From Hirudinaria manillensis (Eukaryota; Annelida; Clitellata; Hirudinida; Hirudinidae), in NCBI GenBank assembly GCA_034509925.1, contig CM067526.1, positions 13,614,510 through 13,678,509 on the forward strand: a stretch of 64,000 nt of DNA. Direction: 5' to 3'. Shown in pieces: positions 13,491-51,509 of this stretch. Position numbers and translations under genes: made by a program. The notes beneath the pieces are model-generated. The model was not told the DNA's origin, did not search any database, and saw nothing but the letters and a program-made list of their open reading frames with translations. The first letter of the stretch is position 1, and the number at the start of each line of letters is the position of its first letter.

Positions 13491-16400
13491 CGGCTGTTAA
13501 TCGATGGTGATGATGATGATGATAGGAGTCGATTAGAACCTCCTCACCCTTGTTGCTTTCCAGTTCGACACTTCCATAGCGGGGGCGTGGACGATGAAAG
13601 GTCACGAACTCTCGGCCGTCAGTTTGTTCGACGATCGGACGACCTTCCCGGAAGGTGACGCGCCCCTCGGTCGGGGGGTGATGTACATAGGTGAGTAGGG
13701 GTCGTTTGGTTCAACCATATAGTCAAGCTGAAGTCAAAGAAACTTGTATCACCAAATACAATACGATACGATACAATATGATACGACATCACTCAATAAC
13801 CGTTGTCATCATCATCATCACCAGCATTGCACGACATGCTTTTATTACTGCAGGCATGTTCAACGACATGCTGTACATCCAACCGTCGGACACCTTTTTT
13901 GAAAAACAAGTCGCTCAAGAAGTCGACAACGAAGATGATGATGACGATGATGATGACGAGGATGACATTGATGGAGGTGAAGTCCAGGTCTACATGCCTA
14001 GGGTCAGGTGGAAGCCATACGTGGCAACAGGTGATTATGATAATGATGATGATGATTGTAGTTTCGAGAACACAATGAACTCGATTTTGACCTTGCGAAA
14101 AAACAACTTAAATTTATGTCTGTCCAGTGTTTGCATCAAAGATGTAAAACAAAAGATGTAATTAATCAATTTCAAACAATTTGTGCACTTTCTCAAAATA
14201 AACTGGGATGACCCGAACTGATAAGATAACCAAACTCTGATAACCATCAAACTTGTTATCAGCATTTCAAAAGTTTGTTTTGAATTCCACCTCACCTTAC
14301 TTTTCACCAATTCCAGCCTTATCACGGACTCCCATCATCGTCAACCAGAGTCCACGGAACTCCGGCCTCAAGGTGGACTCTGCCAATTCTGCCCCTCCGA
14401 ATGTCAATTACAAGGACAAGAGTCTTGCCCTGTTGTCCAAGAACCAGTACCCATTTGGTGAGACTGCATTTGCTGTTGTTGCTGTTGTCATTGCTCTTGC
14501 TGTTGCGTTGTTACTGCTGTTGTTGTTTTTGGCATGGGAATAGGATGTTTTTCTTTAGTGGGATTTAATTTTATTTAATTTTGGGACTAAATGATTAAAA
14601 TTCAATTGAATTGATTGAATCATCCTTACTCTCTTCTACGTTTCTGATTGGCAGACAGTGGCTACTACCTCTACCTTGACTACACACCCATCGAGGACTT
14701 TGGCTCCTGCCAAAACATCACCAAGGTTCCAAAGAGGATCAAGCTCATCACAGCGCTCTCCAGGAAGTGGTGAGTGATTGAACATTTACAATCGTTTGAA
14801 CAATCAACAAGCGATTGAAAGTTTACAATTGGTTGAACGTTCACGAGCGATTGGATGTCAATTGACTGCTCCTCAATTCATTTGCCATGACTTTAGGAGT
14901 CTTTAGCTGCTTGATTGAGGACAATCATCACTTGCAAATGAATCGTTTTTCTACATTTTTTGTTGAGTCACTCATCGACATCATGACTGCTTCGATTGTC
15001 ATCAGCATGGCTAAGGTCACTACCACCACCATTACTATCATCATCATTGCAGGAAAGAAGTGAGTCTCTTCCTTTTCATCGGCATGGCATCCCTCGTTTC
15101 CTTCCTGAGGAAGAAGTTCAACGGATCCTTCGAGAAGACGGAACCGGGTCCTCCTTCTGCTCGCACACCTGAACTCACCTCCAAGAGCTGCTCGGCCCAG
15201 GTGAGGCTGATGAGTTTCTACCTGTCTCGTTCCGTTCCGGTCGATTGAATCCGCTCTGTCGTGTTATTTTTTTGTCATTTTGCAGTTAAATGACATTAAA
15301 TTGTATTAATTGAGTATTTTAAGGTGTTTGACAAAGTAATATAATTATTATATATTAAAAAATATTATATATAACAATATATAATGAAGTAACATTAAAT
15401 TATATAACAAATTTAATGTACACAACAAGTATAGAAGTACACAAAGACCATCTACGGAACCAGTTATCATTTTCATCGCATTAACTTTATCGAGATTAAA
15501 TATTTTATTTTTAAAGATTATTGATACGACTTTATGCATTGTTATCGTCTTTATCATCACGACCTTCCACATCTCTTTAATCGTTTATTTTTCTTCCTCA
15601 ATCTCCTTCCAGCACGATCTCCTGACGCCCGAGTCCGACTTCAGGCGCGACAGTTCCAAGGAGGAGTTGGTGACGGCAGACAACTCGCAGCAGTTTGTCT
15701 CGAGGTGATGATTTGAGTTGTCTTGCTTTTCATGTGAAGCCTAGTTTTTGTTGATCAGTATAAACTTATCTAGTCATTCATTTTTAACCTAGTTTAGTTA
15801 GCCATTAACTTATTAGATCAATTATTATTATTATTATTATTATTTTCATTAACATCCATTGGAGAGGATGTTCCTCTAGGCCACTTTAAACTTGGTTAAT
15901 ATAAGGTCATTCATTCATCAGTATCATCATTTTAAATTTTCAAAATCACTCAACCTCAAATGGCGACGTCGCAATCTTTCCAGGTACCTGACGGACTTCC
16001 AGCAGCTGGAATGCCTTGGAAAGGGAGGCTTCGGAGTGGTCTTCAAGGCCTACAACAGGATCGACGAGTGCTCCTATGCCATCAAGAGGATCGAACTCAA
16101 AGACAGGTTTGTGGCACGTGGAACTGCTGAGGTCTGAGATGTTGGGTCATGGACAGGGGCAGCTGTTGTTAGACCTCAGTTTGGTTATTTGGATGAGTTA
16201 GGATGATTGGTCGATCGATTGGAATGGGTTTATTACTCATGATTATTGAAGGAGTTTAATATAGTTAAGTAATGAGTTAAAGAAAAAAACTTGTTTAATG
16301 TTTTTGTCCACTTCTACAGCCATGTGATTGATCATCAGTTACGTTGCTTATCATGAAATATAATCCATGACATGTCATCATTTACATTTTCCAAAATCTG

Positions 16401-18802
16401 ACAAAAAAATTTTGTTCAACAAATTTTCCTCAATTAATTTCCAGCAAAATGGCTCGTGAGAAGGTCATGAGAGAGGTCAAAGCACTGGCCAAATTGGATC
16501 ACCCAGGAATCGTGAGGTATTACCAGAGCTGGTTGGAATGTCCGCCTCCGGGATGGAGCGAAGGTAAAGACTCTTTCGCCCGTCCTTTGGAATCCTTCGA
16601 GACTTCTGCAACTTCCGACCCCACGTCCGGGGTTCAAAGGTCGTCGGAAATTCCCAGCCGCAGGGGCTTTGGAGGGGAACTGACGGAATCTAGCGGGGGC
16701 ATCGTCTTTACGAACGAAAGCCTAGGAGTGGAAATCCAATCTTCTTCTGGCGAAGGTTCCGGCAATTTGGACAACGGCATCGCAATCACAATGGACGGCA
16801 ACAGCTGGGATGGAGATTCCGGAAAGAACACCGACGGAACCATTGGAGAGCTCGAAAAGGAGTTTGATTCCGAATCCATCGACTTTGAAGGATCCGAGTC
16901 GTTCTGCATGATCGGAGGCTCGAATCACGACTCCCTGAGGAGGAGAAACGTGGCCTCTTCGCAGGGATCTTCCATCGTATTCCTAGAAAACTCCGAGCAT
17001 CCAGACGACGCTCGGGGCAGAGACCTAGAAGACCCCAAGGACCAAAAGCATGCCCCTAGAAGGGCTCGTGGAATCAACCGCGACCTCAAAAAGCCCGAAA
17101 AGAACTCGAACTGCGAAGAGGAGGGGGAAAGGTCAAAGGTCGTCGCCCCCGAAGAGGCTCCGAGAAAGCTTTACCTTTACATTCAAATGCAGCTTTGCCG
17201 TCCCGAGAGTCTCAGGGAGTGGTTGAATGACCAACCGTTCGAGAGGGAAGCGACCTACGACATCTTTTACCAGATCGTCAGTGCCATTTCCTACGTCCAC
17301 GTACAGGGACTCATGCATCGTGATCTCAAAGTTGGTTTTTTCTTTAATTTAATTTAATGTAATTCCATCTTTTCTACTTGTCTTTTTGTTATTAATAGTA
17401 AAGTTAGTAATATAATATAACAATAATATTATTACTTTTATTATAATAATAATAGCAATATTATAAGTAACAGTAAATATTAAGTAATATTAATAGTAAA
17501 GTTAATATTAATAAATATTAATAATAAAGTATAGTAAAGTTAATAATAATAATAACAATGGTAATAATAATAACAATGGTAATAATAATAATAATAATAA
17601 TTGCCTCTTAATATCCAGCCCTCGAACATCTTCTTTGCAATGGACGGCACAATAAAGATCGGTGACTTTGGCCTCGTCACGGACGTGGAAAACTTGTGCG
17701 ACTCCGAAAACCTTTCCGTCAAAAATGGCTGCAAGAACCTCTCTGTGAAAGTTCACCGTGGAAAGAAGCACACGAATCAGGTCGGGACGCAGATGTACAT
17801 GAGTCCTGAGCTGGTTAGACTTCACTTATTATTACAATATTATTAAACCATTATTATTATTATTATTATTATTGTTGTTTGTTATTATTTAACTATTTAT
17901 TATTTGATGAATATCCCGTATTTAGTTGTATTAATGGAAAATTAAAATATAAGTTTTAAATGAAAAAAAAGATAAAATACAAAAATTATTTTGGGGCAAA
18001 ACTACAGATAAACAAATAAATAAATGATTCATCATACAAACTTATTACGTTACCATAAATAATTTATCAGTTAATCAATCAACTAACGAATGTCAACGTC
18101 TCGTCTTCTCGTTTCAGAGCTCGGGACTGAACTACACTCACAAGGTGGACATCTACGCCCTCGGCGTCATCTTCTTCGAAATGTTCCAAAGGTTCTCGAC
18201 CCAAATGGAAAGGGTGTCGTCTCTGAAGATGATCAGGGATCAACAGTTTCCAGAATCCTTTGCCTCGAGATTCGGAGACGAGGTTTGTTGGTTTGCGAAA
18301 ATGTAGTTGCATTGTTTTGCGAATGGATGGTGGTGGTGATGGTGCTGTAATAAGTCAATAATTTGTTTGGTATTATTAGAAATCAATATAGTAATAATGT
18401 TAATTATAATAACCAATTACAATAATATTTCATAATGATAATCATTTTTATTACTCTTATTATCATTATTTTATTATTATTATTATTATTATTATTAGTT
18501 CTAAAACATAAAAACATTAGAACCTTTTTCCTTATCAAAACATTCCTTAACCTTTTCACCAGTACGAATTCGTGAAACCCCTGCTGAGCCACGACCCTTC
18601 TGCTCGTCCCGAAGCCTGCGACCTCCTGAAGCACAAACTCCTGTCGAACTATGAGGAGTCTTCGAACCTCTTCCGTCGCCTCCATAGAACCAGGACCCTG
18701 TCTGTCCATTCCAATTCCTCGCCATCTCAGGCCATCACTCCCCCTGCCACCGCTCCTCCCGCCACCACTGCTACTGTAGTCTCTCAGACTGGCAGCCTCT
18801 AA
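10896..18802 (+). CDS. EIF2AK3: PERK, eIF2-alpha kinase 3 (ER stress sensor)
   Basis: Type I ER membrane kinase that senses unfolded protein in the lumen and phosphorylates eIF2-alpha. Exons: 10896-11023, 11588-11714, 12090-12287, 12617-12759, 12859-12956, 13231-13373, 13564-13690, 13854-14030, 14317-14457, 14655-14769, 15053-15200, 15613-15704, 15984-16106, 16445-17330, 17619-17813, 18118-18282, 18563-18802. They total 3246 nt, giving 1081 residues (human about 1116). The first ATG opens a hydrophobic signal peptide ([16 protein letters not shown]). The luminal domain shows [18 protein letters not shown] and EKWNFSVGQ. A membrane helix lies near residues 470-484. The kinase has G-loop GKGGFG (558-563), Lys580, HRDLK (878-882), DFG (898-900) and GTQMYMSPE with activation-loop Thr939. 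A long acidic insert of about 200 residues separates the kinase lobes, as in other PERKs. The luminal region carries an unusual Asp-rich run (exon 8). All key catalytic residues are present. Confidence 0.96.
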
Positions 18803-30425: not shown

Positions 30426-31641
30426 CTGTGCGTCCACTGGGTGGAAACAATATCAAGGGTCGATTGAATCTGTAAAAATATGGTTGATTGAATGTAGGAA
30501 CCCATCTGCAGTTTGTTCGTAACCGTAACTCAGCTCGTATAGGGATACTCATCATCTCTTATTAGAGGGTCGTAGAAAACAAATTTGTAAACAACATTAC
30601 GTTGATGCGATGTCTTCGTTTTGGATGAATGGAAAAAGAGCCCATCAATTTTTGATTTCACAATATTTGTTTTAAAATATAAATATGGTGAGTAAGTTTC
30701 GTTACACAAACACTTATCGCACTTAAAAACTTAACCCATCTTTAACTTCAATTCTCAGTTTTATTATGGCAATCTCTACTCGTAAATTCCAGCGGTTTTT
30801 AAAAGTAACAAAACATCTCCCAATGCGTGCCAGGGAAAATGAATTCGTTGTAAAGAAAATCTGCCGAAAATTTGAGGCTTTTTGAGGAATTTGAAAGCCT
30901 GGAAGGGAATTTAAAGCTTAAATCTTTTGTAGATTAAAGGTTACGAGTTAATCCAGGTTCTATGACGACGACGATGACGGTAAAGACAAGAAGTCAGTAG
31001 GGCAAGAAAATTGTGATAGGTAGGATAAACGCTTTTTAACGCTTTCTGTTAACAACTATTTAATCTAAGTAAAATCAAGTTCGAACAATTTTTAAAATGT
31101 TATCGTCCAACTTCATACTCCATGTTATAGTTAATCCTTATACTTGTTTATTTTTAGCGAAAAGGGTACACGTAGCCAGACCGGAAGCAGCCTATCGTGA
31201 CCGTCATCTGTTTATCGGTGGTAACGTGCGAGGCGTCAGAAACCTCTCGTATCGCGATCACACGACTCTTTTATAGATAGTTACCTGATAATATTTGCCA
31301 TTTTGCACCAATTGATCTAGTCTAAGCCCAGGTACCACTTTCTGACAAATCTACTTTTAGCCCTAACAAAAAATTGCGATCTGTTTATGAAATGGGAATG
31401 CTTTATTTCTATCATGTGATTGAATGTTTTCAAAACTTGAAACGGGTGATATTATGTTTCTTGTAGTTTCGGTTACGATCTTGATCCTTTAATTGCGCTA
31501 GTCTTTATCCTAAAAAAGTTCGTTGTGTTTCTTTGCCTTGAGCTTCGCTGCTTTTAGTATGGTAATCTAAACTAAACATTAATAACCAACCTAAATTGTC
31601 ATGCAGGTTTTGAAGAGCTGTGGTATTTCAAGTGAACTGTC
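30426..31641. other. Divergent intergenic region between the SPATA18-like gene and SEC16
   Basis: No coding exon supported. This 1.2 kb separates two divergent start codons and should hold both promoters. A splice acceptor at 31601-31606 (ATGCAG) precedes the SEC16 ATG by 36 nt, so SEC16 probably has a 5'UTR exon here; a consensus donor (GGTGAGTAAG) lies near 30689. Confidence 0.5.
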
Positions 31642-34600
31642 ATGTCCAAAACACCTTGGGACTCTGGAGGCATGAATCGGCACAGGGGTTTCGACAATGG
31701 TTTAGGCACAAATTTTCCAAGCAGTGCCCAACATTCTCCATTCAATTACGGAGCTTACAATGAACCAGTGACCAACACAGCCTGGCATCAAAACAATTTG
31801 TGGTATCCAGAGGAAAATACTAAGCCACAGGATGGTTCAGACCATTTTGGTTACACCTCTATGGCCAATTCGTGCGAGTCATCGGCTTTTGTGAATAGCC
31901 AGGCACAAAGTGGATATGATGGCCAAAATTACGGTTTCAACTATGTCAATAACCATCCACAGTGGCCAGGATCGAGAGAGCAGATGGATGGGCAGAGCCA
32001 TTACAATCCTCACGATCAATATTCTGGATATGTCGACGGACAATTTCAGTATCAAAACTTTGCACCTCAGCAACATCGGGACGTCGAGACGAACCAGCAG
32101 CCTTCGTCGGATCCGTTCTGCAGTCAAGAACTTCTCAGCAAGTCCGAAGGAGCTTCGACATTTGACAACATTCCTCCGAGGGAGGTTTCAGCGAATCATT
32201 CTCCCGCCAGCGAAATCGCCAAGGAAGAGCTGCCGACGGGTGAGAACGACTTACAATCCTCTGATCAGCTAATGGCCTCCCAACCCCCCACTGCTTATTC
32301 AAGCAGCGAGCCGTTCTTACTGACCACGGATTTGGGACCACCGCCCGTTGGAACGATGACTGGTATACCGACCGGAAATCAGTTCAGAAAGGTCCCTCTC
32401 AAAAAGTCCTCTTATCAGGTCAGTGACAGCTTGTCCAGCCAATTTGGAAACATAGAGCTATTCTCGCCAGATCAAAAAGCCGTGGCTTCTCCTGGTTATG
32501 GAGATAACGTCGATGTAATTGCGGATTCCAGTGTCATTGCCACGGAAGAATCCCTGGATCAAAAACTTGCGGACAATGAAGTTTCTTTGTACAATCAATT
32601 ATACACTCCTCCATCTTCTAATCTTGATCCTGCAATTAGCAAATCTTTGGAAGGACCAGTACTGCCAGCTTTACCCAACAAATGCTTGGAAGAAATGCCT
32701 CTTCAAAATGAAAAGCATGCTCCGTCTGCCGAGAGTGAAGCAAGACAAGAAAAAGAAGAGACAAAACAGGTCTCAGACGACGAAAAGATTAGCTCGAACC
32801 AGGTCGATTCTTCTGATTTGTTTAATCCCATCCATTATTTGACTAGGAAGAAACTCTCAAGAGATTCAACTCTGTCTCCTGCCACAACTTTGTGGGATAA
32901 CTTAGACGTATCACCCCTTAAACTTGGTCCAAAATTGGTTCCTGCCCAAGAAGTAGAGTCTGCACAACCAGCTGCTAGCACTGAAGAGGCGATCACTACT
33001 CCGCTTCTCCAAAACACCGGGACGGGACCTTCCAACAACAGCTTGACATCTGAAACGAGCACACCCTGTGTCTCGGAAAAACAGCCTGTTTCTTCGGTCG
33101 TTCATGCGAGTTTTGTATCGGACTCGACGATCTCTGTCCTTCCAATAGATTCGACTGTTGCTGTTTCAAAGAGCGATCTCTTATCGTTTGGTTCTAAAGA
33201 GGAGGATGTAGTATCTCTGAAGGAACAATTGGTAACAAATCCTGTCCCTGGTGTTGCTTTGGTGCAAGACAGTCATTGCCCAAGAGCAGAGACCCAGCTT
33301 CTTTTGCCACAGTCACCTCCGGCAAGCCAGGTCCTTGACCATGGGAAGCATCACTTGCCTCTAGAGGGATCTCATCAGCATAATCAACCTCACTTTGGAC
33401 CCCCTGTGCCAAAACAGCCAGTTCCCCAACAACCTCCTAAACAAGAGTTACAACTGCAACATACCTTGGAGATTGATCAGCACGAGCAGCCACCCTTGAT
33501 AGTTTCCCCACAGATTTCTGACCCCCTTCTGTCAGCTTTTTCAACTGTCAAGCCTGGAGCACCTGTCAGTTGTCCTCAGAATCTTCCCGTGAGTCATGCT
33601 CCGAATCCAAACATTAGAGGGAGTGAGCAAATCTCAGTCCCTGTCAATCGCAAGACAACATATTCGGCACTGAATCCCGAACCTGAAGCCAGACTCTCCA
33701 GGCTAAATGTGCACAACGATGACTCCGGTGCGAGGCGAGGGCCTTCTGGACCTTACGACGAAGGTAGGAGGCAGCAAGATTTCAGACCCCAGTCTAGACG
33801 AGGAGAAGATCGTCCCCCTTATCGTGGTGAGGCACCCCAGAGGGAACACGACGACGATCCGTCGAGATACCATAGGCCCGATTCTAGGTCATCTTATTCT
33901 GATGCTCGCAACCCTCGTTACGAGGATAGGCCTTACGACAGGCCTTCTTCCAGACAAGGATACGCTCCGGGGGTGCAGTCTGTACCGAGGTCCAGCTTTT
34001 CGAGGCCATCTTCTAGAGCAGACGAGTTCTGTGATGACAGAAGAGGGAATTATCCTGGAGATTATGACCGCCATGATCGACCGCTTTCCAGGCAAAGCGC
34101 CTGTGCCGAAAGAGATCGGTTTCAAGAACCGTCTGGACGTCACGGAGATCAGAGATCTCGAGACATCACCGCCGACAGGTACAGATATCGTGAGGAGGAA
34201 GGCTACCAAAAGTTTGACGGAAGATCTCAGTTAGATGACAGGCCCAAGTATCAGGATGACAGGTCGAGATATCCACATGATAGATTGAGATATCCAGAGG
34301 ATGGTTCGAGGTATCACGACGAAAGATCGAGGTATTCGGGCGACAAGCCAGGACACCTAGACAACAGATCCAGATATCCTGATGATAGATCCAGGTATTT
34401 GGATGATAGGCACAGGTACCAAGATGATAGGTATAGGAATCAGGATGAGAGATATTATGGTGATAGGGCTTATTCAGATAGAAGATCCAAATATGGGGAC
34501 GACAGATATAGAGGCGTGGATGATCCATACAGGAGTAGGTCGAGGCAAGGTTATCCGGAAGGTCATTATAGGTCGAAGATGAGAGACGAACATCAGTTTT

Positions 34601-37600
34601 CGAAAGCTTATGAAGAGGCTTACGACAGGCCAAGATCAAGGCAAGGTGAGTTCCCAAGCTTATGGATTTTTCTTAGTGATGAGTGCTGACATTTTAGTTC
34701 TTAAAACTTTTAAAACAAATCCAAAATTGAAATAATAATAATAATAATAATAATTAATAGCCTCATAGATGTTTTAAATTGGCCCTTACATGGTGATAAA
34801 TAAAGGAGAGAGATTTCTTGAACCACTGCATTAAAAATTGCTGGCTGGCTATTTGTACAACTTAATAAATGTTTGTTCTGAAACTGTTTCAGAGGATCCA
34901 TATCAATCTGTTGGTGACAGGACTGGAAAGGACTGGAATGGCTATGAGGAGTATTACAGACAATATTACAAAGGTGGGTTTAAATTTTGTGACAGGAATA
35001 ACATTTAAAGCTTACATTTTAATGCCAATGCTTTTAACATAATAATTTCTTAAGAGGTAAGGGTACATTTGGGTACATAGCTCATTATTCTCTTAATTAT
35101 GCAGACATGATGAAGCTCTACTACGGACATCCTGGACAGAAGTACCCCCTCGAAATGAATCCGTACTTGAACGCGTACTACGACTTTGTAGACTCGTACA
35201 GCAAGGGCTATTACGAGGAAGTGGCAAGCTATGGCGCCCCTGCACAACTCGACATGAGGTTGAATTTGACTTGTTGCTGGATAAAAGATTCTTTTTTAGA
35301 TGTACCTTCAACAGATGTGCATACGATAGTCATTGCTGAGGGTAACGCACTCAAAACGTTATTTCTCACTTTCATTTTGCTAACACTTGCAGCGGAGCGG
35401 AAGGACACTTGCACGGCAGGATGTTTCCTGGAGCGGAACCCGGGATGTCTTCCAGAGCCAGTTCGAGGAACTTTGACCCACTAACTGCTGCGTTAGTTTT
35501 GAGGAGAAAAAAGTGATTAAAACTTATTTATTCTTTGTCTGTGGCTGCAGTTCAGTGTGCCATGATGCTGGTGAAACTCTTCGTTTTCCATCCTTCAGCG
35601 CACTGGAATGATCATAATGATTATGTTTTTGTTTAGTTTTTAATTCAATAATTCAACGATTATAACTTTTTTTTTACAGTGACCAATTCTCCAGAGAATC
35701 TCAGAGAGGATCCAGGCCTCCGAGTCACATGAGCGGCTTCGTGACCGGCTATGTTGAAGGTGAGGTCCATCTATTCATCATCACTGTCATTGTTGTTGTT
35801 GTTGCTGCTGTGGTCATCGTCATTATCATCAACATCATCAGTGATAACAGTGACATCATGCATTCTTATCATTTGTTTTCACACTCCAGAGAAAAAAAGA
35901 CTCACGCCGTTCAAGTTCTCGAGGGCTCACGTACGAGCCTCCTTCTCGCCGTCGGGTCAACTGGTGCAGGTGGTGCCGAACAACCCGACCGAGGGTCAGC
36001 CCGCCCAGGTCAGGATTCTTTCCCTCTGCGACCCGGAGTCCGAGGAGGTGAAGGAGCTGACCAAGTATCCTGGCCCTCTAGTCAGGTAGCAACGTTGTCG
36101 GATGCTTTCGGGTTTCGGTTTTCTCTTTCACGGTTCGATCGTCCAAACCAAACAGGGGAGTCCACAAGAACAATGTCCAAGACTTCTGCAGGCAGATGGT
36201 GCTCAAGTGCAGTGAGGACTTCAGTCTCGTCGACAGGTCTTCTGCTCAGCTCATCTGGGATTTCTTGACCCTTCTCATCAAACAGAACGGGGTAACCTTG
36301 GCTTGCACCTTTACTAGCCATTCTGTAGCACGCGATTGCATATTATTGGTCTAGCAAATTGTTTCTTTTTATCTCCTGAGTTATTGTATTGTGGCACAGA
36401 TGTATCGTATTTGCTGACATCAAACAAAGCTTTCGTCGTTTGTAAAATTCCGATTTTAATTTCCAGTTCATCAGCGGCACGGACGTGGCAGAACTGCTGA
36501 CCCAGGGTGACGACTTCAATCCTGACCAAAAGGATCTGACGGACGAAGCGGAAGACTTCGGACTGAACTCGAGGTCCTCTTTCGACAGGTCCGTCGTTCC
36601 GGTCGACCGATCGGGACAGCCGTCGGTGGAACAGGTCACCAATCACTTTCGAGGACTCCTACTGTGCGGAAGGAAAAAGGTAAACTGCAATTTTTAACTA
36701 GGGCATTGACCGACGTCGTAAATTATAATAAATTATGATAATTTGTCCCGTATAGGATGCCCTCGATTGGGCAATGAAGCAGAACCTCTGGGGTCATGCC
36801 CTCTACTTGGCCTCTCAGATGGATGCCAAGACCCATGCCATCGTTAAGACCAAGTATGTTGTTGACCAAATGGCCTCCTATAGTATTCATTCTTTGCCAC
36901 CCCCCTTTCTTTGCATGCAATTGTTGTCTTGCATTTGTATTTTTAAAAACTTTTGAAATTATTCCATTCAAGGTTCACCAGTTCATCGATGAAGACCAAT
37001 GATCCGCTGCAGACACTTTACCAGATACTAGGTGGAAGACAACCCACCTCAGTCACGGTAAGCAAATAACGTCAATAATACAAATAACATCAATAATACA
37101 AATAACATCAATAATGCAAATAACGTCAATAATGTCAATAATACCAATAATATCAATAATACCAATAACCATAATGATATTAATAATAATAATAATAAGT
37201 CATTTATATAGCGCCGAATGCGTGAGCTACAGAGGCGCTGAAATAACATCAATAACATTCTTTGAGATGTCACCTTGCCTCATTTTTGCAAATGGTTGGT
37301 CCTTGATTGGCTCCCACGTTGTTGAGGAACCACGGGCCCATGTTGCTAGCTGTTGATCTGGCGAAACTGTCTCTAGATCCACACATTTATACATTTATGT
37401 CTGCTCATAAAGGTTTATACATATGTCTATACATGTATGTATGTCTGTGTATAGATGTCTACTCATCTGTATAAACGTGTACGTCTATACATATGTCTAT
37501 CAAATTATACGTTTATACATATGTCTATACATGTATATCTGTACATGCATAGATGTCTACTCATCCGTATACACGTGTACATTTATACATACATGTCTAT

Positions 37601-45067: not shown

Positions 45068-48000
45068 TCATTCCGAGGCCAACAGGAGAGTGTGTTGTCC
45101 ACCAGCAACTGCCATAATGCCTTTCCTGTAAATCAATAAGCGATTAGTAATGATAATCAATTTGATAAATCAACATCATATAACAACATCTGATGATTAC
45201 ATCTAAGATCATTATAAATTATAACAAAGAATGATGAGGCAACTTACAATTTGTCAAGTGCTTTGCCTTTGATTGCCTTGGGCTCTTCAACGTCGTCCTC
45301 ATCATCACCCATACCCAGCTGCATGGTGCTACCCATACCCCAGCCATAGATGGTCCCTGAAGCAAAAATAACAATTAAACAGTCACAATAAATATCTGGT
45401 TGTAATAATCTAAACAAAACAAATGAAAAGACAAAGATAAGTATACAGTAATACAGAAACAATTATAACAATTAGTTACATACATATAACAGCCACAACA
45501 ACAATAAAGTCGTCCCATATTATCAGGACAATGGAAATAATTAACGAATTATTAAAATAATTAAACTGAATCTCACCGTCTTCGGCGACGGCAAAAGAGA
45601 CGGACGACCCGCAGCCGACGCTGATGCACTTGGTCGACGCCAGAGACTCGACGGGCGTCAACTCCTTGACGTGGTCGAGCGAGTCGACCGGGCCGAGTCC
45701 CAGCCGTCCGTACTCCTTCCTCCCGATGCTGTAGACCTTTCCGGTTCCGTCGAGCGCGACGGTGTGGTGCTCCGCGCAAGCGATCTCTTTCCAGTCACGT
45801 GTCGGATCGAACGTCTTCGAGACTTCGGGGAATAGTCTGTTTTCCATGTCTGGGAAGCCTGCAAAAGCCGTGATAGGTCGCAAATCATTAATTAACTGAT
45901 CGTTATTCAATCATCAATCACCAATCAACCCTAATCTGAAACAAACCCAATTGATAGTAGTTGTTGAGACCCCAAGAGAGGATTTCCCCTTCGCTCGACT
46001 TGGCAAACGATACATAAGCGCCTGCCCAGATATCGATGCATTTAAGGCCTCGTTTTGTGAACCTCACTGGTTTGGCATTGAGGGTGCTGTCTGTTATTAG
46101 AAAACGATTATTATTAATAATATTACTATTACTGTTATTAGAAAATGATTATTATTATTAATAATATTACCATTATTATTTTTATAAATACTACTTAACA
46201 AACGTGTTATTGTGTTAAGTAATTGTTACATAATAAATAACAAGGATGTCTTAACATTACCCACCTATGCCCAACCTTCCGCCTCTGATGGAGAACCACT
46301 CGCCTATTCTGCCGAGCTGTCCGACATCTGAAGCACCTGAAAGAAAACATGTCAATGAATTTCCTGACTTCCTTCTCATGAAGGGCACTATCAGCAGCAG
46401 TATCAACAGCACTATCAGCAGCAGTATCAACAGCACTGTCAGCAACAGTATCAACAGAATCATCAGAGCAACCACAAACCTAGACTGTAGACTTCTCCCT
46501 TATCTGTGAGGCACAAGATGTGAGCAGAACCGCTGGCTATTTTGATGACCCTGATGCCGTGGAGGATCTTGGACGGTCTCTCCACCTTCTCGCTCTTTCC
46601 CATCTCCTTGCCGCTCTCCTGCTTCCTCCTCGCTGCCGGCTTTCCGTCGACGGAGACCTCGTCTTCGGGGTTGATGCCTATGACTCCGTTAGTGTCCTGA
46701 TAATGGTATAGTTTGACGTTGTTATGGAAAAGTATGAGATGGAAATCAAAGATGCCAAAATAGGAAGCGTTACTCACTCTGAATGTTCCCCAGATGTAAA
46801 CCTGACCACGTTCTGTGAGGGCCACCGAATGGCTGTCACCTGCAACCACCTGGATGACCTTTCCCTCAATTCCTTCCACCTTTCCGGGCACTGCGCAGTC
46901 GGCTTCCTCTTCCGTATGACGACCGAGAGTGGCCTCGTCATTGCAGCCAAATGAATAAACCTATTTTGAAAATAAAAAATATCCACATGATTCTATAATC
47001 CTTGAATTCATGACTCAGATCCGATTGACTTATTATTATTGGTAGTTTATTATCGTTTCACTAAACTACTCCAAGTCATCCTCACCTCTCCTTGGGCTGT
47101 TATGCACAGGCTGTGCATACCCCCTGCGGATATCTGGACGACCCCGATGCCTCCGAGGTCAACCCTCTTGGGCCTCGATGACTCCACGACGTCGGGCCCC
47201 AGTCCGAGCTGACCCACGTCGCTTCCTCCCATGGCGAGGATCATGCCCGGGGTGCTCCATCTGGCGGCAACAGGAGTGGTGTCGGCTGTAAAAGAAATCA
47301 ATTCATCAATGTAAATTGATTTGATATTTATTAAATCAATTGATTGTTAATCGCTTGTAATCGATTAACTCGTACCGTGATCCTGCTTGGCTTTCTTGAC
47401 CTGCTTCTCGGACTCCTTGACCTCGGAATCCGCCTTTCTCTTGCGGTCGTTGCCAACGGTTTTGGCTTCCTTGGTTTTGGACGCCTCCTTCTTGTCTTTG
47501 CTGGCCAGTGTCTTCTTTGCAGCTGTGGTTTTCTTTTCGTCCTTCTTCGACTTTTGAGGTTCCTCGTCTTCTTCTTCGTCCTCGCTTTCCGTCATCGCGA
47601 CCTTGGCTGCGGCTCCTTTCTTGGCGGTCGCAGCATTTCTGGCTCCCCTTTTAGGCTTAGGTGCCTCTTCGGCTTCGTCACTTTCTTCGACTTTGGCTTT
47701 TGAAGCTTTTGTGGCAGCAGCTTTCTTGGCAGCTGCCACTTTCCTGGCACCCCTTTTCGGTTTAGGGTCCTCATCTTCTCCGTCATCCTCCTCTTCACTC
47801 TCGACTGGCTTGGCTTTGGAAGCTTTTGTGGTGGCAGTAGCTTTCTTCTCTGACTTTTTGTCTCCTCTTTTTGGCCTCGGCTCTTCGTCTTCATCCTCGC
47901 TTTCCTCCTGTTTGGCCTTTGAACCCTTTGCAGCGACAGCTTTTTTGGCAACTGCTGTCTTCTTCTCTCCTCTTTTCGGTTTCGGAACATCTTCTTCCTC

Positions 48001-49604
48001 GTCGTCACTCTCTTCGACTTTGGCGGCTTTGGCAGCAGGTGCTTTCTTGGCCGCAGTTTTCTTGTTTTGTTTTGGCTTCTGAGGTTCAACTTCCTCTTCA
48101 CTTTCCTCCACTGGTGCTCTTTTGGTTCCTCTTTTGGGCAATTCCATCTTTTTTCCATCCTCTTTGCCTTTCGTTTTTTCTGGAAGTTTGTTGTCATCAT
48201 TTCTCTTTTGCCTCGTCTGTCTCGTGTTGACCTGGACCTCTTCCTCCTCCTCCTCCTCCTCAGGCTTGGCCTTCTTCTTGCCTCTGGTATGCCTCTCCGG
48301 TTCTGCCTCTTTCGGTTTCTCGTCATTTTCTTCAGTCATTTCTTCTTCTGCCTGTTTTGCCTTTTTCTTGCCCCTAGTCGTTTTCTCTTGTTCGACCTCT
48401 TTCGGTTTATCTTCGACCTTCTTGCCTACCGATTCCCCGTCTGACTCCGTCGGTTGTTGTTGTTCTTTTTTGGCTTTCGCTCCCTTCTTGCCTCTGGCTT
48501 GCTTCTCTGGTTCGACTGCCTTAGGCTTGTCATCACTCTCCTCTGCTTCATCTGGATGTTCCTTTGTTGGCTTAGTCTTCTTCTTGCCTTTCGATTGCTT
48601 CTCTGGTTCAGCTTCTTTCAGCTTTTCTTCTGATTTTTCATTGTCTGACTCTTTGGGCTGCTCCTTTTCAGGCTTGGCCCCTCTCTTGCCTCGGGTATGT
48701 TTCTCAGGTTCAGCCTCGACCAACTTTTCTTCTTCGGCTGCTGACTCCTCAGGTTTTTCATCCAAATTATCTCCTTTCTTTTGATCTTCTGATTGCTTCT
48801 CTGGCTTGGACTCTTCTGCTGTTTCTTTAGATTTTTCGATCACTTTGTCGTCCATTTTTTCCTCTTCCACCTCCATTGGCTCTTCATCAGCAGCTGGTGT
48901 TTCCTCCTTTTTAGACATTTTTGCCTTTTTGTTTGCAGCAGCCTTCTTAGTTGGTGCCTTTCTTTTATTCTTTCCAACTGGATTTTTGGCTTCTTCATCA
49001 TCTTCACCATCTCCATCTTCGACTTCTTTTTCTTGTTCAGCCATTTCATGTTTTCCATCAATGACCTCAGCATTATCTTTGGCTTCTGCTTTTTTATCAG
49101 TGACATCCCCATCATCACTTACTATTTTGTCTGCCTTTTCGGTGGCATCTCCGTTTTTGGCATCTTTTGCCTCTGACGTTTCAATGTCAAATGTGTTGTT
49201 CATCGGATCCTCTTTTGTTTCCTCATCTGCAGTCATTTTTTCTACACTGCTCTCTGCCTTGGAACCCTAGAAAGTATTTTATCTAGTCTAAATTTTTGTA
49301 TTTGGTAAAATGATGTGATGCTATAATATAAAAGTATGATCATAATGTTTCAATGTTTCATGAGTAAATCCCAGCATTAGCAAGACTTGGTGTCAGGCTT
49401 TGAAGATCAATGCATAAAATACATAAATTCGTCTGGATATTTAGATTTTAATGAAATCACCTCTTTATCTTCTGAGCTGAGAGCTGCCTTCTTTCCTCTT
49501 CCCTTCTTTTGTGATTTATCACTAGCTTCTGATACATCTGCTGAGACATTGGATGCTGTGTCTGTTTTTTCTTTCATGACCCCTCTATTCTTGGCAGGTG
49601 ACAT
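45068..49604 (-). CDS. RCC1: RCC1, Ran guanine-nucleotide exchange factor with long charged N-terminal extension
   Basis: Chromatin-bound exchange factor that loads Ran with GTP, driving nuclear transport and spindle assembly. Minus-strand exons: 49604-49461, 49266-47376, 47285-47086, 46960-46778, 46696-46480, 46336-46265, 46090-45947, 45858-45577, 45356-45248, 45125-45068. Total 3300 nt, 1099 residues. The last ~421 residues match whole human RCC1 (421 residues) across the seven-bladed propeller: GGSDVGQLGLG, GGMHSLCITAQGEVYSFGCN, GDSHSVALTERGQVYIWG, EHHTVALDGTGKVYSIGRKEYGRLGLG, GGQHTLLLASE. In front lie about 678 residues of Lys/Glu/Ala-rich sequence, almost all in one 1.9-kb exon, with two internal repeat arrays (roughly residues 224-385 and 430-640). 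The start is the first Met of exon 1 (MSPAKNRG), which resembles the MSPKR start of vertebrate RCC1. Confidence 0.95.
46388..46458. repeat. 24-bp minisatellite in RCC1 intron 5
   Basis: Three copies of ACTATCAGCAGCAGTATCAA plus CAGC. Read on the plus strand it is Gln/Tyr-rich, but it lies between RCC1 exons and is not part of any gene model. Confidence 0.8.
47500..48740 (-). repeat. Coding repeat arrays of acidic/basic blocks in RCC1 exon 2
   Basis: The distal array (about 48740-48250) repeats a unit with core EAEPEKHTRGKKKAKP about five times. The second (about 48115-47500) repeats a ~35-residue unit, an acidic ESEDEDEE block followed by PKPKRGxKK and an Ala/Lys tail (AAAKKAAATKASKAK), about six times. 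Units differ in length by codons only, so frame is preserved. Confidence 0.85.
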
Positions 49605-50271
49605 GTTTATCTAGCACTTAAGGTTATATAAGACAAATTACTAATAATATGAACATTTCCATTAAATTCAGTCGATAAATAAAAATTCCAAAGTCACTTG
49701 TTAAATTAGGTAATCTTATAGCCATTTATAAAACAATTTCTCTAAAAAATATTCTATATTAGGTAAACAAAACAGTCAAATATATGCATTCAAGCATGAT
49801 CATAAGTAGGTGATAGAAAAAAATACAATTCGAAAAATAAAGCATCAATAACCATACTTAATATGGTCGCGTGCACTAAGGAATCACGTAGAACGATATA
49901 CGAAGTGTGATCAGAAATTCAAATCATCGAAAAATTACAAATCCTCACCTTTGATGTAAGATCCTAGACGTAACGATAACAACAAGTTTACAAACTCGGA
50001 ACTAATAGCGGGATTCGAAGTGTCACTTTTAAATGCCACAAACAATTCTCCGGAATGCTTAAATGTTTCAATATCTTTGGGCGCTAAATGCAACGATACT
50101 TTAAGTAGTTCAAACATCAATTTAATAAAAAACTGTTTGTTTTAAAAATTGCAATAAATAATTGAAAATATAGTACAGAATTTTTAAAAAGGTAAAAAAA
50201 ATTAAAAACTTCCGTAGCACGACGGTCGTTAAATATTGTTCGAAGATCGTTACAATTATATCAATAACACG
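49605..50271. promoter_or_regulatory. Divergent promoter region between RCC1 and LRRC42
   Basis: The RCC1 and LRRC42 start codons lie 667 bp apart on opposite strands. An acceptor (TTAAGTGCTAG) at 49611 just upstream of the RCC1 ATG implies a 5' exon further upstream, and the small exon at 49949-50117 is a candidate. Only 154 bp separate its ATG from that of LRRC42, so a shared bidirectional promoter is likely. Confidence 0.55.
49949..50117 (-). CDS. Possible small coding 5' exon, unknown protein (56 codons)
   Basis: On the minus strand an ATG opens a frame with well-balanced composition (MFELLKVSLHLAPKDIETF, HSGELFVAFKSDTS, EFVNLLLSLRLGSYIK) ending at a strong donor (AAAG|GTGAGG). Unspliced, the frame stops four codons later (GEDL). 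Joined to the acceptor at 49611 it reads eight more codons and stops, out of frame with and overlapping the RCC1 ATG. It could be an upstream ORF of the RCC1 transcript, a tiny independent protein, or the first exon of another isoform. I recognise no family. Confidence 0.4.
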
Positions 50272-51509
50272 ATGGTTAGAGGAGTAAAAAGGCAGAGAGA
50301 TGAAGATGGGGAAGTCAAACAAATATCACCGAAGCGGATAAAAACTAAAAATATCAGAAAATCTAGCAATGTTAAAAATGCGATCACGCCCGACGATATT
50401 GGTTCATGTAAATATTCACCCCAAAGCTTGGAGACTCTGAGCTTGAACTTCGTTTCATGCAATGTCGACTTACTGGACACATTAGTCGGTTTACCGGAAA
50501 TGATTGGCAAGCTCATTTTTGACCATATTGCAAGTTACATCGCCTCTGAAGACAATTATCCGAATTCAAAAGTACTGCATCTGTTTAAAGTCTTTAACGA
50601 AGCTTACCAAGGAGAGTTTCTTGAAGATCTAACGTTTAAAGACATTTTCTCAAATGAAGAGTGAGTTTTCATATGTTGAAATGTTACTTTTAGCACTGAA
50701 CAATTTGAACAATGATGAACGATTTCAAACTTAAACTCTACTTTAGGCATTAAAAAAATACTCAATTTCATTTAGTATATGTCATGATTATAAATGTTAA
50801 CTCTCAAATTCATCAAATAATATGTATATAAAACATATATATATATTAAAGATCATGCTCAAAAAGAATATTCCTGGATGAATGTTCAACTTTCATGAAG
50901 TCTTTCACAAATTTAAAGAGGTTAGACCTGTCTCACACTGGATCCGGGAATATAGATCTGATGTTAGATCACATAGCCAAAATGTCGAGGTCTGGAGGTT
51001 TTAATTATGTTATTGACAAAAAATCTTAGAGAGTAACAGTTTTAATATTATATTAAGTCGTTACTTATTATACAGATCAATTATGGTATTAGTTTATTGT
51101 GATATTATTGGCTTAATTGTTGTATTTGTAAGAATGCTCAAAAGGTGTTTATTCTCCTTAAAACTGTTTCAAAACTTCACAGTTTAGAATTTCTCAACCT
51201 GAGCGGCGTTGACGTCTGCAACGAAGATCTAAGGAGGCTAACGATTTCAATCAAATTTTATGGCAGGGGTCTGACAAACCTCAAAGTTCTCGACTTGTCC
51301 TGTGAGTTCTTTCATTCCAATTTTCCAAAAGAAGAGGATCAATAATTATAATAATAATAATTATTATTATTATTATAATCAATAATAACAATAATAAGCT
51401 AATTTGTACTTATGCTTGATTCCCTAGTCATATTTAGGTCACTGATTTCTATTCAAACAAATAAGACAAGTTAACATAAAATGCAAACAAACCCATTTTG
51501 AAATGCATT

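Follow-up and report, generated by a model that had tools for sequence, protein, structure and literature searches.

A charge-repeat tail on RCC1 in the annelid Hirudinaria manillensis as a candidate chromatin-retention module

A ten-exon gene on the minus strand (49604-45068) of a 64,000-nucleotide stretch of the Hirudinaria manillensis genome (assembly GCA_034509925.1, contig CM067526.1, forward-strand positions 13,614,510 to 13,678,509; this whole stretch is called the window and its own numbering is used here) encodes the Ran exchange factor RCC1 with a long, charged N-terminal extension. The gene reads as one open frame of 1,099 residues, 678 of which form the tail and 421 the propeller. 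All introns are of the GT-AG type with sizes of 81-220 bases, an in-frame TAG lies nine bases upstream of the start ATG at 49604, and the tail joins the propeller in frame, with fitting splice phases at both junctions of exon 2 (Table 1). A preliminary description of the window, made by a model from the sequence, had stated that one exon of about 1.9 kb adds a charged N-terminal region of about 678 residues in two repeat arrays. Re-reading the exons and translating all ten of them gave the same coordinates and lengths, and the extension itself was borne out.

The propeller matched human RCC1 over residues 11-419 of 421 (phmmer, 2.6e-97, 330 bits). Among the PDB sequences, fly RCC1 scored 246 bits, UVR8 144, HERC2 133, RPGR 104 and RCC2 90, which places this seven-bladed propeller closer to RCC1 than to the other four families. 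The Pfam RCC1-like domain PF25390 was found at 2.4e-102 and PF00415 also exceeded its cut-off; with the full protein as query, Pfam listed nothing but RCC1-type families at E up to 0.01. The stretch FRDTNGVIG, encoded by exons 4-5, aligns without gaps to human FRDNNGVIG, which we take to be the beta-wedge that inserts at Ran. The positions of Arg147, Asp128 and His304 are all kept in the alignment to human RCC1 (numbering assigned manually on the PDB chain), and the latter two are presumably residues of the exchange mechanism in the human protein. A different picture emerged at the position of human Asp182, where the ungapped alignment places an alanine: the context reads GSAH here, in contrast to GNDH in human, GADH in fly and GKDH in yeast. 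According to the passages of PMC2898669 that deal with this residue, Asp182 does not contact Ran itself; through a hydrogen bond it steadies Arg147 where that residue touches the Ran P loop, and the human D182A mutant shows a strongly lowered kcat and more dynamic chromatin binding (PMC2898669). The Ran gene of this genome looks ordinary, with four exon matches at 75-91 % identity to the human sequence. Compared with human RCC1, about 23 extra residues, charged in character, follow the beta-wedge (46696-46480, minus strand, DGKPAARRKQESGKEMGKSEKVE); this insert probably sits near the Ran-facing side.

A second, divergent gene of the RCC1 type is located on contig C7 (about 5415800-5421380, plus strand), where five consecutive exons remain open across GT-AG junctions. 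Its joined pieces reached 241 bits against human RCC1, 187 against fly RCC1, 151 against UVR8 and 134 against HERC2, and three intron positions are shared with the window gene in place and phase (after 'FR', in the Gly of 'SIG/SLG' and in the Gly of 'QLG'). At the 182 position this copy carries a histidine (GNHH), so that neither RCC1 copy has Asp182. No comparable extension was detected within 10 kb upstream of the C7 gene, scanning plus-strand runs of at least 45 codons with a charged fraction above 0.35, and its first exon was not located. Of the two copies found, it is thus the better conserved one that bears the long tail. Upstream of the C7 gene, on the opposite strand, frames of the Pax-type paired-box and homeobox kind were recognised by eye.

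Lysine (21.7 %), glutamate (19.2 %), alanine (12.2 %) and aspartate (8.0 %) dominate the tail, about half of which is charged. It contains one aromatic residue and no Cys, Trp or Tyr, and its 170 basic and 184 acidic residues give a slightly negative net charge. Each unit of array 2 carries an acidic serine block E-S-[DE]-[DE] (6/6), followed in four of the six by P-[KR]-P-K-R-G and then by a Lys/Ala-rich stretch. The net charge is arranged in blocks more strongly than in any of 2,000 shuffles (z 6.9 for the whole tail, 7.4 for array 2), with a period of 33-35 residues. The tail is predicted to be disordered: in the charge-hydropathy plot it lies far on the disordered side (0.295, boundary 0.421), whereas the propeller lies on the folded side. 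An AlphaFold run on exon 2, made from the single sequence without an alignment and hence weak evidence, gave a mean predicted local distance difference test score (pLDDT) of 39, and 571 of the 630 residues scored below 50. It showed a single helix, over exon residues 600-629 (protein residues 648-677; pLDDT of the block 59-72).

The open run of exon 2 extends over 630 codons. By comparison, the longest run in 1,000 first-order Markov sequences, matched in base and neighbour make-up, averaged 139 codons with a maximum of 315 (best of three frames), and the other two frames of the same strand contain 10 and 52 stops. Between the units, synonymous differences amounted to 0.82 per site in array 1 and 0.80 in array 2, where a random redraw of codons would lead to 0.90 and 0.85; nonsynonymous differences reached 0.27 and 0.29, and the resulting ratios (pN/pS) were 0.33 and 0.36. 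Controls by register shift and random codon pairing, which contained no realignment step, had set baselines of 0.66-0.77. Realigning shuffled codons shrank the effect but did not abolish it, since none of 150 shuffles per array was as low as the real value (means 0.53 and 0.63, minima 0.40 and 0.52); the unit boundaries were set by eye, and these shuffles retain composition, not descent. The amino acid identity between units was 0.54 in array 1 and 0.49 in array 2, compared to means of 0.27 and 0.25 after realigned shuffling. Saturation is incomplete, as identical residues share codons a little more often than usage predicts (0.54 versus 0.45 and 0.48 versus 0.43). Because synonymous sites are near saturation while nonsynonymous changes are held back, the units appear to be old and their amino acids kept, which argues for the tail repeats being selected coding sequence.

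These values also bear on the main rival explanation, a tolerated disordered expansion that is translated, is no more useful than a short basic tail and keeps its composition only against harm. Disordered charged tails expand easily, and the basic cluster that is retained next to the propeller may be sufficient. The position-specific identity of the units, together with their near-saturated synonymous sites, exceeds what composition alone would need, and we regard this explanation as somewhat unlikely.

The repeats are visible in the protein and hardly in the DNA. Tandem Repeats Finder returned seven rows in 47000-49700, with a best score of 46; these short low-score runs and the near-saturated synonymous sites led us to reject a recent DNA tandem duplication. 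A search of the 148.4-Mb assembly (23 contigs) for exon 2 gave no further match as DNA or as protein, the protein search having scored 70 of 472 first-look candidates; very common words are skipped by the search tool. With this single match at both levels, a mobile-element or multi-copy origin was rejected within this genome. Pfam and NCBIfam listed no match for exon 2 up to an E of 10, with search filters that remove most matches above E of about 0.1, and array 2 with the basic cluster gave no PDB sequence match at E up to 5. A fusion with some known family was rejected on these results from Pfam and NCBIfam for exon 2 and from PDB for array 2 and the cluster. A 95-residue propeller piece found no relative in prokaryote genome contigs.

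The ends of the extension bear on whether the tail is part of RCC1. Its last residues hold a basic cluster that adjoins the propeller and lies inside the predicted helix. Fifteen residues separate its KKAK from the Pro-Gly of the first propeller strand, compared to nine for KKVK in human RCC1 (PDB 5tbk). The cluster occupies the place of the human nuclear localisation signal (NLS) and DNA-binding tail, and is a putative basic NLS directly before the propeller, as known from RCC1. Removing exon 2 leaves no such cluster before the propeller. At the other end, the protein starts with Met-Ser-Pro as human RCC1 does (PDB 5tbk), a three-letter match that is weak evidence on its own, and Ala replaces human Lys4. 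Because both this start and the basic cluster at the end of exon 2 are RCC1-like, the arrays appear to have grown inside the RCC1 tail, between the two. After removal of Met the N-terminus reads Ser-Pro-Ala-Lys and not X-Pro-Lys, and so does not conform to the N-methylation motif: efficient N-methylation requires Lys, rarely Arg, at the third position, as stated in the relevant part of PMC4692089, and K4Q abolishes N-methylation of human RCC1 (PMC2898669). The preliminary description mentioned neither this changed motif nor the Ala at the 182 position nor the second RCC1-type gene.

The same evidence speaks against a gene-model artefact, in which exon 2 would be a separate gene upstream of RCC1. 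The model was built from sequence alone, which leaves room for such an error, but the phases fit at both junctions of exon 2, the introns on either side (194 and 90 bases) fall within the range of the gene's own introns, and it is exon 2 that supplies the RCC1-like cluster; we consider an artefact very improbable. Intron 2 carries a single ATG, which runs into a stop. The earlier view that the extension is not an obvious fusion artefact thus finds indirect support in the splice phases, this ATG, the basic cluster and the coding constraint in the units.

Intron 2 also suggests a more complex possibility. An in-frame TAA at 47367-47365 (minus strand) is reached three codons beyond the exon 2 donor, and an AATAAA follows 32 bases past it (47332-47327, minus strand). 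Exon 3 contains an in-frame ATG at residue 693, which could start a tailless RCC1 without the basic cluster. The locus might accordingly yield two kinds of product: the tailed RCC1 and, from transcripts ending in intron 2, a free charged nuclear protein of 681 residues accompanied by a short RCC1 from the exon 3 Met, the tail then acting in part as a separate protein. As an alternative transcript end the AATAAA is possible, with chance being more likely, for this weak signal occurs in 22 % of mono-shuffles and intron 3 has one too. The start at residue 693 would lose the basic cluster, and the acceptor of exon 3 has a good pyrimidine tract as judged by eye; taken together, the two-product model is improbable.

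The preliminary description had likened the extension to linker histone H1 or nucleolin. H1 tails have repeated S/T-P-x-K sites and few acidic residues, whereas the entire 678-residue tail contains two Ser/Thr-Pro sites and more acidic than basic residues; together with the missing Pfam match of exon 2, where the winged-helix domain would have to appear, this leaves the H1-like reading not supported, although Lys/Ala-rich stretches are shared with the H1 C-terminal tail. Features of nucleolin, namely RRM domains and an RGG tail, are also lacking, as exon 2 has no listed family and the extension no RGG. What stood of the comparison is the alternation of acidic serine with Lys/Ala/Pro blocks: in Nopp140/treacle and in the N-termini of nucleolin, acidic serine blocks of the casein-kinase-2 type alternate with Lys/Ala/Pro blocks, and we take Nopp140 to be the closest match in layout. 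All six units of array 2 follow this pattern. The LisH and SRP40 C-terminal domains of Nopp140/NOLC1 were not listed by Pfam, neither for exon 2 (E up to 10) nor for the whole protein (E up to 0.01). The likeness is therefore read as a resemblance and not as membership; the folded or RNA-binding domains of Nopp140/treacle and nucleolin are absent from the Pfam listing, and the tail is joined to a Ran exchange factor, unlike in those proteins.

Blocks that alternate about every 35 residues raise the possibility that the tail mainly sends RCC1 to the nucleolus, as a store or as a source of RanGTP. Such targeting is compatible with retention on chromatin and could accompany it, so that our confidences in the two overlap. 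With no RRM, LisH or SRP40 domain listed, no RGG, and a likeness to Nopp140 and nucleolin in composition and layout only, nucleolar targeting seems rather unlikely.

Among RCC1-type proteins, RPGR-ORF15 combines an RCC1-like propeller with a long low-complexity charged exon, which is C-terminal, Glu/Gly-rich and ciliary; the tail described here is N-terminal and part of RCC1 itself. Drosophila RCC1 (PDB 3mvd) has the same propeller, basic residues in a short tail and its first blade near residue 43, and yeast SRM1/PRP20 (PDB 3of7) has the same propeller with the first blade near residue 30; both carry Asp at the 182 position, unlike the Ala here. Mammalian RCC1 alpha, beta and gamma share the propeller and the basic NLS cluster just before it, and differ in a tail of about 30 residues (about 25 times shorter), in Asp182, in Ser-Pro-Lys in place of Ser-Pro-Ala and in the absence of charged arrays. 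The inserts of RCC1-beta and -gamma, which make the tail longer, lie after residue 24, just after the basic cluster (PMC2898669), and the junction of exons 2 and 3 occupies the corresponding place. Ki-67 has disordered repeats too, whose charge blocks could drive condensation, and gains its blocks by mitotic phosphorylation, as the relevant part of PMC9106583 describes; here, the unmodified sequence already has the blocks, with only the two Ser/Thr-Pro sites. Variable RCC1 tail lengths and inserts altering chromatin binding are already known, and the 678-residue charge-repeat tail is an apparent addition. The literature search yielded no account of such a long RCC1 charge-repeat tail, which may still exist in print or in databases.

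Table 1. Coordinates of the RCC1 gene and of features within it (window numbering).
Feature	Position	Strand	Description
Exon 1	49604-49461	minus	144 bases; residues 1-48, MSPAKNRG...SEDKE
Exon 2	49266-47376	minus	1,891 bases, no in-frame stop; residues 49-678 and first base of codon 679
Repeat array 1	48732-48235	minus	five units of 30-39 residues (about 33); core E-[KR]-x(2)-[RK]-G-K-[KR] in 5/5
Repeat array 2	48108-47482	minus	six units of 31-39 residues (about 35)
Basic cluster RKRK-x12-KKAK	47445-47386	minus	residues 656-675, inside predicted helix, adjoins propeller
Intron 2	47375-47286	minus	90 bases, between tail and propeller
Exon 3	47285-47086	minus	propeller start
Exons 4-10 with introns	46960-45068	minus	remainder of seven-bladed propeller; with exon 3, residues 679-1099
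Codon GCT, Ala864	46525-46523	minus	position of human RCC1 Asp182, ungapped alignment

Several further features surround the gene. Upstream of RCC1, a frame of 68 residues (50117-49949 and 49753-49716, minus strand) begins with MFELLKVSLHLAPKD... and was joined by eye as ...EYFLEKLFYKWL. It stops 111 bases before the RCC1 ATG, and has no Pfam match at E up to 0.01; a small gene is one possibility, a segment of a shared transcript another. A divergent gene (50233-51300, plus strand) shows leucine-rich-repeat-like stretches by eye and is presumably LRRC42-like; its first open stretch (50233-50664) had no Pfam match. A 1,017-codon open stretch at 31636-34689 (plus strand), with many charged repeats of the RSRYxDDR type near its end and no Pfam match, is assumed to be SEC16-like. 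At 16371-17357 (plus strand) an open frame contains a partial protein kinase domain (Pfam, 3.2e-14), which we take to be of the PERK/eIF2-alpha-kinase type. Genome-wide, many (TTAGGG)n arrays are present (a 30-base pattern matched 796 times forward and 1,652 times in reverse), which speaks against an arthropod with TTAGG ends.

In our preferred interpretation, to which we assign a probability of roughly one half, the window gene is the better conserved RCC1 of this genome and carries a multivalent tail for retention on chromatin or nucleic acid. Serial duplication of acidic/basic units of about 35 residues within one exon would have enlarged a tail of a few dozen residues to 678. The Lys/Ala/Pro-rich blocks may make many contacts to DNA, RNA or acidic histone surfaces, and the acidic serine blocks may limit or tune this binding through their charge and through phosphorylation of the casein-kinase-2 type. 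Compared with a short methylated tail, this would keep the propeller on chromatin for longer and more evenly, and the propeller would catalyse exchange on site.

Work on the human protein gives this idea a frame. Retention by the human tail is weak and aided by N-methylation and by Ran exchange. In the portions of PMC2898669 that treat the tail, its removal shortens the chromatin dwell in human cells, the basic residues alone doing part of the work, and the 17-residue insert of RCC1-gamma after residue 24 stabilises chromatin binding (PMC2898669). For mCherry constructs, the half-times given there come to 0.81 s without the tail, 1.51 s with D182A and 2.19 s with K4Q; the wild type has 2.85 s together with mCherry-Ran and 3.66 s alone (PMC2898669). 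Mutation of Asp182 and mutation of the methylation motif each shorten the chromatin dwell of human RCC1. With both altered here, multivalent binding by the tail may carry more of the retention. For Ki-67 repeats, charge blockiness is described as driving condensation (PMC9106583, in part).

Some observations weigh against a retention tail. The isolated human tail is not stably bound to chromatin unless joined to the core, according to the same part of PMC2898669. The slightly negative net charge could weaken DNA binding of the tail overall, array 1 taken by itself shows only mild blockiness (z 2.0, a level reached by 77 of 2,000 shuffles), and the AlphaFold disorder carries little weight. Furthermore, the gene model and the tail are read from the genome sequence of one species, and invertebrate RCC1 proteins may often have long charged tails.

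A stronger version of the retention model would be that chromatin anchoring has been rewired: the charge-block tail of 650 residues would have taken over retention from Asp182 and methylation, possibly with RCC1 gathered on chromosomes or in the nucleolus into a condensate that phosphorylation tunes, and Ran exchange would proceed with a different hydrogen-bond arrangement. This we treat as a long shot. The co-occurrence of the long tail, the lost methylation motif and the lost Asp182 in one gene is suggestive of compensation, and no more.

The way in which RCC1 is seated on chromatin governs where RanGTP is produced, and the relative contributions of tail, N-methylation and exchange to RCC1 retention are not settled. 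If true, the presence of two RCC1 genes without Asp182 would mean that this lineage uses a different hydrogen-bond arrangement for Ran exchange. An RCC1 with a huge tail, no methylation motif and Ala in place of Asp182 represents a natural experiment on the contributions of tail, methylation and exchange.

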